From Candidatus Sulfobium mesophilum (GTDB taxonomy: Bacteria > Nitrospirota > Thermodesulfovibrionia > Thermodesulfovibrionales > UBA6898), in assembly GCA_900302705.1 (NCBI GenBank), contig OUUY01000141.1:1-49673 (forward strand): a stretch of 49,673 nt of DNA, in the 5' to 3' direction. This document shows positions 6,176 through 8,139 of the stretch, piece after piece (position 1 is the first letter of the stretch; every line of letters begins with the position of its first letter). The translations under genes and the position numbers were made by a program. A model generated the notes under the pieces. It worked only from the letters and a program-made list of their open reading frames with translations, was not told the origin of the DNA and did no database searches.

Positions 6176-6200
6176 AAGGGCTCTGTGAAGAGCCCTTTTT
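6176..6200 (+). terminator. Rho-independent terminator of the ribosomal operon
   Basis: AAGGGCTCT (6176-6184) pairs perfectly with AGAGCCCTT (6189-6197) across a GTGA tetraloop, and T residues follow. In reverse it is followed by a weaker T-rich stretch, so it may also end the convergent CBS-domain gene. Confidence 0.9.
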
Positions 6201-6238: not shown

Positions 6239-6688
6239 TTAAGTGTTTTCGTAAGCATACCCGCCTGTGATATAGCTTTCAAGATCACTGATCGTAATCT
6301 TTTGCTCGGTGATAAGCGCATTCACCACATCTCCGATGCTGATCATGCCAAGGATATGCCCTTTCTCAAGAACGGGAAGATGCCTCAATCTCCTGGCAGT
6401 CATCAACGCCATACATGCCTCTATGGTCTTATCAGGTTCCGTATAAAATACTGGGGCACTCATGAGTTCATCTACTGAGGTTACCTTTGAGGACCTTCCC
6501 TTGAGGATTACCTTCCTGGCGTAATCCCGCTCTGAAAAGATACCCACAATCTCCTCACCGTCAACAACCAGCAGGGCACCTATGTCCTTTTCTGCCATCA
6601 GTTCAAGAGCATCGTATGCCGTGGCTCGAGGTCCAATTTGCCATACAACGGTGCCTTTGGTCTGCAAGACATTTCTAACTGTTATCAT
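6239..6688 (-). CDS. Two-CBS-domain protein
   Basis: CBS pairs bind adenosine nucleotides and usually sense energy state or control partner proteins. The 149-residue protein is essentially two CBS modules: residues about 10-65 (DALELMAEKDIGALLVVDGE, EIVGIFSERDYARKVI) and about 75-140 (TIEACMALMTARRLRHLPV, ILGMISIGDVVNALI). No other domain is present, so it is a stand-alone regulator. ATG 6688 is preceded by GGAGG. The gene has its own promoter about 220 bases upstream and a terminator inside the leader, which suggests regulated read-through. The partner is unknown. Confidence 0.88.
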   Translation of the reverse strand: MITVRNVLQTKGTVVWQIGPRATAYDALELMAEKDIGALLVVDGEEIVGIFSERDYARKVILKGRSSKVTSVDELMSAPVFYTEPDKTIEACMALMTARRLRHLPVLEKGHILGMISIGDVVNALITEQKITISDLESYITGGYAYENT

Positions 6689-6722
6689 TGCCTTGTCCTC
6701 CTCTCTATCGTAATACCGTTAG

Positions 6723-6762
6723 AAAAAAAAGGCCGAACTGCGGAGGTCTTACCGCAGTCCGG
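6723..6762 (-). terminator. Terminator inside the leader of the CBS-domain gene
   Basis: On the minus strand CCGGACTGCGG (6762-6752) pairs with CCGCAGTTCGG (6743-6733), one G-T pair, and is followed by CC and eight T residues (6730-6723). It lies 35 bases upstream of the CBS-domain start codon and downstream of that gene's promoter. This is the layout of an attenuator or riboswitch expression platform. Confidence 0.85.
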
Positions 6763-6908
6763 TCGATAGATCCGGCAGTCATCGGCTCGTTATACCCCTC
6801 CCCTCCTGTGGAGGGATTATCCTTTCCGGCGAGCTGCCTTCGGGTCGGCATTTGCCTTTGCCCTTGTCAATCGTGAGCCCCAGTCATCCGGGGCTGTCCG
6901 GTACTCTT
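6763..6908 (-). ncRNA. Structured leader RNA, candidate riboswitch or attenuator
   Basis: About 145 transcribed bases precede the leader terminator. Visible paired elements include GCCCC/GGGGC (6894-6890 with 6883-6879), GGC-AAAT-GCC followed by GACCCGAAGGC, and GCAGC/GCCGG-rich strands that recur near 6774-6784. The purine-rich AAGGGCAAAGGC is faintly like a c-di-GMP-I aptamer, but the invariant core of that class is not present. I therefore do not assign a class. Confidence 0.4.
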
Positions 6909-6914
6909 AGCCTA

Positions 6915-6943
6915 ACGATACTCCCACGCCGGAAGAATGTCAA
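6915..6943 (-). promoter_or_regulatory. Promoter of the CBS-domain gene
   Basis: On the minus strand, TTGACA (6943-6938) and TATCGT (6920-6915) are 17 bases apart. The predicted start is near 6908, giving a leader of about 220 bases. Confidence 0.65.
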
Positions 6944-7006
6944 TTGGATAATTTTAGTTAACAGGAAGGCTAAAGCAGATGGTTTATTTGGGGCTAAAAT
7001 TGACCC

Positions 7007-7633
7007 CTAACGGTACTGAAACTCTTCGCTTTTGACCTTCTGACGGGAACCTCGACCTGTCTTCCCTTCGAAACGTTGGATTGCATAGAACATCACGCCT
7101 GCCATAATTAACACAAGTGTTATCACAACCCAGTGATTCACTCCCAATATGCCGGGCAAAGTTGCGGTACCCATTGATGAGGAGGTGTAGAAGAACTCGA
7201 GCGCTGGATAAATAACTGCAAACAGCAGCGATCCGGCAATCATGCCCAAAATTGTGACAAACGCATCGATCCTGCCGCTGCCAAGGCCGGCTACGGCTGT
7301 GCCAGGGCAATATCCAGCCACGAGGTAGCCCAGTCCAAAGAGGAACCCACCCGCAATCTGCGGCCAGAAGAAGGTGGGGACTATCCAGATCTTGCTTATA
7401 TCTAATAGTTTAAGATCCCCAAGCATGTAAAGGCCTGTAGCGGCGACGATTATGGCAGAGAACATCGCCTTAGGCACCGCAAAATCCCTGAGATAAAATA
7501 CGCCTGTGAGTTTGTGAGGGTTGCCAAGACCTCCTCTTTCAAGGAACAGACCAAAGAAGAACCCCACAATTACTGCAATGATCAGGCTGACATTTTCGCC
7601 AAATAAACCATACTCATAAAGTGGAGCGTTCAT
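7007..7633 (-). CDS. YeeE/YedE-type transporter half, second gene
   Basis: This family moves sulfur species such as thiosulfate across the inner membrane through conserved cysteines. The 208-residue protein has several hydrophobic helices and the family motif YLVAGYCPGTAVAGLGSGR with one conserved cysteine. The start is ATG 7633, preceded by AGGAGG; the longer reading to 7753 overlaps the upstream gene and is rejected. The upstream half-gene ends in an ATGA overlap with this start, so the two are co-translated and probably form one transporter. The substrate is inferred from the family. Confidence 0.85.
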   Translation of the reverse strand: MNAPLYEYGLFGENVSLIIAVIVGFFFGLFLERGGLGNPHKLTGVFYLRDFAVPKAMFSAIIVAATGLYMLGDLKLLDISKIWIVPTFFWPQIAGGFLFGLGYLVAGYCPGTAVAGLGSGRIDAFVTILGMIAGSLLFAVIYPALEFFYTSSSMGTATLPGILGVNHWVVITLVLIMAGVMFYAIQRFEGKTGRGSRQKVKSEEFQYR

Positions 7634-8139
7634 GACCAAAGCCTCCTGAAGATTGCGGCAAACAGAAAGCCGCTTATAAACATTGATATGACAAATATCC
7701 ATCCGGCCGCTGCCAGTTGGGCACCGCCCGAAAGTGCCACCCCGCTTGTGCAACCCCGTGCAAGCCTGCCGGCGAATCCGATGAGGATACCGCCCGTGAA
7801 GGCTGTAAAAAGCCTCGTTGTGCCACCCATCCCGGGCGCTTTATCGAATCGTATTTGAAAATTCCTGCTTAGCAGGGCACCGGTTAGTGCACCGGCAAAA
7901 AGGCCAAGAATCTCGAAAACGATCCAATCCTTAAGCGGTGAAGCAGTACTGAGGTAGCGTGAAAAATATCTGAGGTTTCCTGCAAATTCCGGATTTATCT
8001 TTTCGACGGCCACTGCGGAGACAATCGAAAAAGCGCTTGATGCCCCGAGCCCTTTTCCCATTATATAGAAAGTAGCAAGAAGGGTCAGTCCAAGACCGAT
8101 GCCCGCAATATAGGGAGACCAGAAATTATTTTTTCCCAT
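7630..8139 (-). CDS. YeeE/YedE-type transporter half, first gene
   Basis: The 169-residue membrane protein carries the other YeeE signature, GRLARGCTSGVALSGGAQLA, with the family cysteine. Single-chain homologs carry both motifs in one polypeptide of roughly 350 residues; here the function is split over two overlapping genes. ATG 8139 follows an AAAGGA-type ribosome binding site and a strong promoter lies upstream. No sulfurtransferase or TusA-like gene is next to the pair, so its use in sulfur uptake is inferred only from the family. Confidence 0.85.
   Translation of the reverse strand: MGKNNFWSPYIAGIGLGLTLLATFYIMGKGLGASSAFSIVSAVAVEKINPEFAGNLRYFSRYLSTASPLKDWIVFEILGLFAGALTGALLSRNFQIRFDKAPGMGGTTRLFTAFTGGILIGFAGRLARGCTSGVALSGGAQLAAAGWIFVISMFISGFLFAAIFRRLWS

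Follow-up and report, generated by a model that had tools for sequence, protein, structure and literature searches.

A candidate genus-specific transcription attenuator upstream of a stand-alone two-CBS-domain gene in Candidatus Sulfobium mesophilum

The stretch of DNA analyzed here (the window) comprises 49,673 nucleotides of contig OUUY01000141.1 of Candidatus Sulfobium mesophilum and includes, on the minus strand, a gene for a small protein with two CBS domains that is preceded by a promoter, a leader and an intrinsic terminator (Table 1). Among solved structures, the protein is best matched by 4fry (E 5.7e-54 with the family profile, a match over the whole length), the structure of Burkholderia ambifaria BamMC406_4587, which is likewise a stand-alone two-CBS-domain protein and which PMC3561365 lists under CBS signal-transduction proteins. 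The CBS gene appears to be monocistronic and is convergent with the ribosomal-protein cluster rpsK-rpsD-rpoA-rplQ (genes named from sequence); upstream of the leader, the same-strand sulfur-transport gene ends at 7007. The preliminary description of this region had reported TTGACA-N17-TATCGT, a leader, an 11-bp terminator stem and eight Ts, and all of these are present on the minus strand. The promoter matches the consensus at 10 of 12 positions, the −10 element being weak (3 to 4 of 6 positions), and the terminator hairpin (6762–6733) has a stem of 11 bp and a loop of 8 nt. The start codon is likewise close, 34 nt separating the last T from the ATG at 6688.

Table 1. Coordinates of the features at the CBS locus and of the c-di-GMP-I-GGC riboswitches found in relatives
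Feature	Positions	Strand	Description and basis
Two adjacent Sulf_transp (YeeE/YedE-type) genes	7007–8139	−	Upstream of the leader
Imperfect dyad GTTAACT-AA-AATTATC	6947–6962	−	Adjoins the −35 element
Promoter	6915–6943	−	−35 TTGACA 6943–6938, 17-nt spacer, −10 TATCGT 6920–6915
P1 hairpin AGCCCCGGATGACTGGGGCT	6876–6895	−	MFE
P2 hairpin, short	6842–6863	−	GGG...CCC with inner GGC/GCC; fold
P3 5' strand GGCAGCTCGCCGG	6826–6838	−	Candidate antiterminator strand; pairs with 6785–6774 in the MFE structure
P4 apical hairpin CCTCC...GGAGGGGAGG	6794–6817	−	Fold
P3 3' strand CCGATGACTGCC	6774–6785	−	Nearly repeats the 5' arm of the terminator, CCGGACTGC
Intrinsic terminator	6723–6762	−	5' arm 6762–6752, loop, 3' arm 6743–6733, CC, T8 6730–6723
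Spacer with Shine-Dalgarno sequence	6689–6722	−	GAGGAGG at 6703–6697; sequence
Two-CBS-domain protein, 149 aa	6239–6688	−	ATG 6688; ORF; Pfam PF00571 8.1e-23
Terminator-like hairpin 3' of the CBS gene	6176–6197	−	Sequence
c-di-GMP-I-GGC riboswitches (Rfam RF03167) with GC-rich terminators	1530–1606 (L131/L174), 1532–1608 (L124)	−	

This order of elements is a rare one in the genome: among the 14 strict terminators found in the 347 kb that served as background, the one at 6762–6723 alone is flanked by a promoter of 10/12 or better on one side and by a Shine-Dalgarno sequence and start codon on the other. The terminator hairpin has a computed energy of about −20.5 kcal/mol in all five leaders known from the genus, and the fold that contains it is the ground state in four of them and within 2 kcal/mol of the ground state in the fifth. 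The pairing elements that had been noted between promoter and terminator are borne out by folding: relative to dinucleotide shuffles, the leader together with the terminator has a z score of −4.2, and the 146 nt preceding the terminator have a z score of −2.5 in the window and about −1.65 in two relatives.

Each of the five genomes of the genus has a single copy of leader and terminator, situated directly before the orthologous CBS gene, so that the conservation among orthologs on which the preliminary description had made its reading depend is observed. Neither covariance-model nor genome searches found the leader away from the CBS gene. The −35 hexamer TTGACA is kept in 5/5 of the genus relatives and, in the other members of the genus, is followed by GAGTA(T/A)NGTT with an 18-nt spacer. 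In the window and in L178–L181, the adjoining dyad has the form GGTAATT-NN-AATTACC, perfect in three relatives and with two or three mismatched positions in the remaining two genomes, and a pattern search for the dyad plus the −35 element finds a single site per genome in all five. To judge from its position next to the −35 element, the dyad is a possible operator for some regulator. The genes upstream of the leader vary: in the relatives they are different from those in the window, or there are none in the same orientation. That these neighbors differ while the linkage to the CBS gene is constant argues that the leader is tied to the CBS gene, and against the hairpin being the terminator of an upstream gene. 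It is thus highly improbable that the terminator serves the sulfur-transport gene and that the promoter is a chance match, a reading favored by the same-strand gene ending at 7007 but opposed by the retention of TTGACA and dyad in 5/5 genomes, once in each, and by L008, which keeps leader, promoter and terminator with no same-strand gene evident just upstream.

Conservation is unevenly distributed along the leader. The terminator, including its loop, is 93–100% identical between species, whereas identity in the part that would form an aptamer falls to about 42%. A hairpin occurs at the position of P1 in all five leaders, with sequences that are unrelated among L006, L008 and the rest; P2 is of the GGGTGG/CCACCC type in the relatives; and in the most diverged pairs of the genus, P2, P3/P4 and the linkers are 27–69% identical. 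The CBS proteins of those species are 74–76% identical to that of the window. In known riboswitches the aptamer is usually conserved and the expression platform variable, and the pattern here, with a conserved terminator and a diverged would-be aptamer, is the reverse. The purine stretch AAGGGCAAAGGC singled out in the preliminary description is present (6865–6854) but is not conserved, since L008 has AGGGTGGACAAATGG in its place. The covariation score of the leader helices lies within the shuffle control, for an alignment of five sequences, three of them close to one another, in which the P3 helices (GCAG/CTGC and CCGG/CCGG) vary too little for covariation to be judged.

A candidate for the antiterminator pairing with 6752–6762 that had been sought is provided by P3. 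The 3' strand of P3 (CCG(G)-n-ACTGC) almost repeats the 5' arm of the terminator (CCGG-ACTGC), so the 5' strand of P3 (6838–6826) could pair with either, and the alternative pairing with the terminator arm is possible in all five leaders. As a three-strand switch would require, GCAG, CCGG and the terminator arm hardly vary among the five leaders, one letter being different in that of the window; the two strands of P3 are 39–40 nt apart in every leader. The conserved candidate exists, but its strength is not exceptional: in no species is the complementarity greater than in shuffled leaders. The form with P3 and terminator is favored over the antiterminator form by a computed 13–18 kcal/mol, and P3 is favored over the antiterminator pairing by 7–8 kcal/mol even before the 3' arm of the terminator has been made. 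Given this stability, the swap, if it is used, needs some driving factor.

The preliminary description proposed a riboswitch that matched no known class by eye. A scan with Rfam 15, at gathering and relaxed thresholds, agrees on the second point, as no family matches the window or the four orthologous leaders; the best matches at relaxed thresholds, PK-BYV and SNORD116, were dismissed as chance. A literature search found no description of the leader. The Rfam test works in this lineage, because it detects c-di-GMP-I-GGC riboswitches in a relative of the same genus (L131) and in one of the same family (L124). With these loci (L131/L174 and L124) as positive controls, no c-di-GMP-I aptamer (RF01051/RF03167) was recognized in the leader of the window or of its orthologs. 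The c-di-GMP-I-GGC riboswitches resemble the CBS leader in being cis-regulatory leaders that end in a similar GC-rich terminator (GCCGAGCTGCCG...CGGCAGCTCGGC-T7), but the resemblance is confined to the terminator. A covariance model built from the five leaders was searched against 230 genomes of the class and 396 of the phylum, and those five alone exceed 34 bits. Below that score, the matches outside the genus that were traced, namely the better ones and part of the weakest, were c-di-GMP-I riboswitches or lone terminators.

These results bear on the proposal that the leader is a riboswitch for a small molecule, possibly of the adenosine type, and belongs to a class not yet described. It has the layout of a transcriptional riboswitch, a structured leader and a possible, conserved pair of mutually exclusive pairings, and CBS domains are generally known to bind adenosyl compounds. 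Against this stand the silence of Rfam on a leader from a genus in which it finds c-di-GMP-I, the lack of a conserved aptamer core, the restriction to one locus per genome and to one genus, a covariation signal not beyond controls and an alternative pairing no stronger than in shuffles. We therefore consider the riboswitch reading, for which the positive evidence goes no further than the layout, doubtful; since a riboswitch would be a special case of an attenuator, its estimate overlaps that of the attenuator given below. The more specific proposal of a lineage-restricted RNA switch, in which the leader would sense a nucleotide-type signal that the CBS protein also binds and would respond through a swap that involves three strands, the two of P3 and the terminator arm, is decidedly unlikely.

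The main rival to cis-acting control is an independent small RNA gene of about 190–200 nt, with the CBS gene transcribed from another promoter. The region is a compact unit with its own promoter and terminator, and its most conserved part (93–100%) is the terminator with its U8 tract, including an anti-SD-like loop (ACCTCC). Small RNAs often act through anti-SD-like motifs, and P4 of L007 and L009 contains another, CACCTCCTT, which we take to be identical to the 3' tail of 16S rRNA. In these two leaders the 5' strand of P4 reads CACCTCCTT and then GGGAGGGGAGG; the leader of the window has only CCTCC. A separate small RNA would, however, leave the CBS gene in need of a promoter in the 34–47 nt between terminator and ATG, and inspection of this interval in the window and its genus relatives revealed no second promoter matching the consensus; the closest approach to a −10 element, TATAAA in L007, is not retained in L010. 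The constant association of the leader with the CBS gene also argues against an independent RNA, as does the TTGACA promoter that orthologous CBS genes from other genera of the family often have 72–198 nt upstream. On balance, we regard a small RNA gene as rather unlikely.

CBS orthologs outside the genus were also considered. Of 32 orthologs from the class, 5 have a strong terminator no more than 130 nt from the start codon, as against none of 70 orthologs from other phyla (Fisher p = 0.0024, or p = 0.10 at a looser energy cut-off), and the lower value is indicative only because the cut-offs were picked after a first scan. These terminators are in L014, L018, L020, L021 and L151, three of which (L018, L020 and L151) have a GGACTG-type 5' arm. 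Homology of the five leaders to that of the genus was rejected, no leader being alignable, and the terminator is patchy even within one genus, being present in L018 and absent from L019. The distribution hints, without proving it, that the CBS gene came under terminator control before the genus arose. In other genera of the family (L013, L016–L021 and L031), the promoter of the CBS gene bears a different common block, roughly AACTTCA-NN-TTGACAGC, and in several of these a TTATAG element is found about 30–40 nt further upstream. In L151, a class relative from another family, the leader contains GGAGG and an ATG, and the frame opened by this ATG extends into a strong terminator (ACCGGACTGCCGCAG...) situated some 40 nt upstream of the CBS gene, an arrangement that may represent a leader-peptide attenuator.

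Ribosome-mediated attenuation through a leader peptide can also be envisaged within the genus, where L007 has a Shine-Dalgarno sequence with a 7-codon ORF and where a start at position 79–80 with a weak Shine-Dalgarno sequence is common to L007, L009 and L010; the frame in L151 would be a parallel from another family. The leader of the window, however, has no start supported by a Shine-Dalgarno sequence, the frame in L008 has three codons only, and indels shift the frames between L007 and L009. Because no open frame or peptide is conserved, control of this kind is very unlikely.

The reading that we prefer is a genus-specific cis-acting transcription attenuator of the stand-alone two-CBS-domain gene, to which we assign a probability of roughly 0.6. 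The attenuation layout that had been recognized in the preliminary description has held up, in that it is rare in the genome (1 of 14 strict terminators), is kept in 5/5 genomes and has no evident consensus promoter after the terminator, to the extent that sequence can tell. Transcripts would begin at the promoter at 6943–6915 and fold into P1, P2 and P3/P4, and, judging from the folding, transcription would halt by default at the strong terminator at 6762–6723, so that the CBS gene would be transcribed by readthrough only. Readthrough would rise under some condition through disruption of the terminator hairpin. In one candidate route, the 5' strand of P3 (6838–6826) would take the 5' arm of the terminator (6762–6752) instead of 6785–6774; alternatively, a protein or other factor may act on the unusually conserved terminator hairpin. 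An attenuator run by a protein or other factor is a possibility to which we give modest weight, and termination that is partial and unregulated is fairly unlikely.

The proposed attenuator has the order of promoter, structured leader, intrinsic terminator and gene with a Shine-Dalgarno sequence that is found in other terminator-controlled leaders, and shares with known attenuators, whether operated by a riboswitch, an RNA-binding protein or a peptide, the possibility of mutually exclusive pairings and a single downstream gene. It differs from them in that the terminator rather than the sensor is conserved and in being limited to one genus. Should the leader respond to a metabolite, stand-alone CBS pairs, a gene family of which both the control and the role are poorly understood, would have an RNA sensor. 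If the attenuator is operated by a protein or is unregulated, it would be an ordinary lineage-specific control element. Either way, the locus would provide a specific regulated gene that is amenable to testing in a group of uncultured Nitrospirota.
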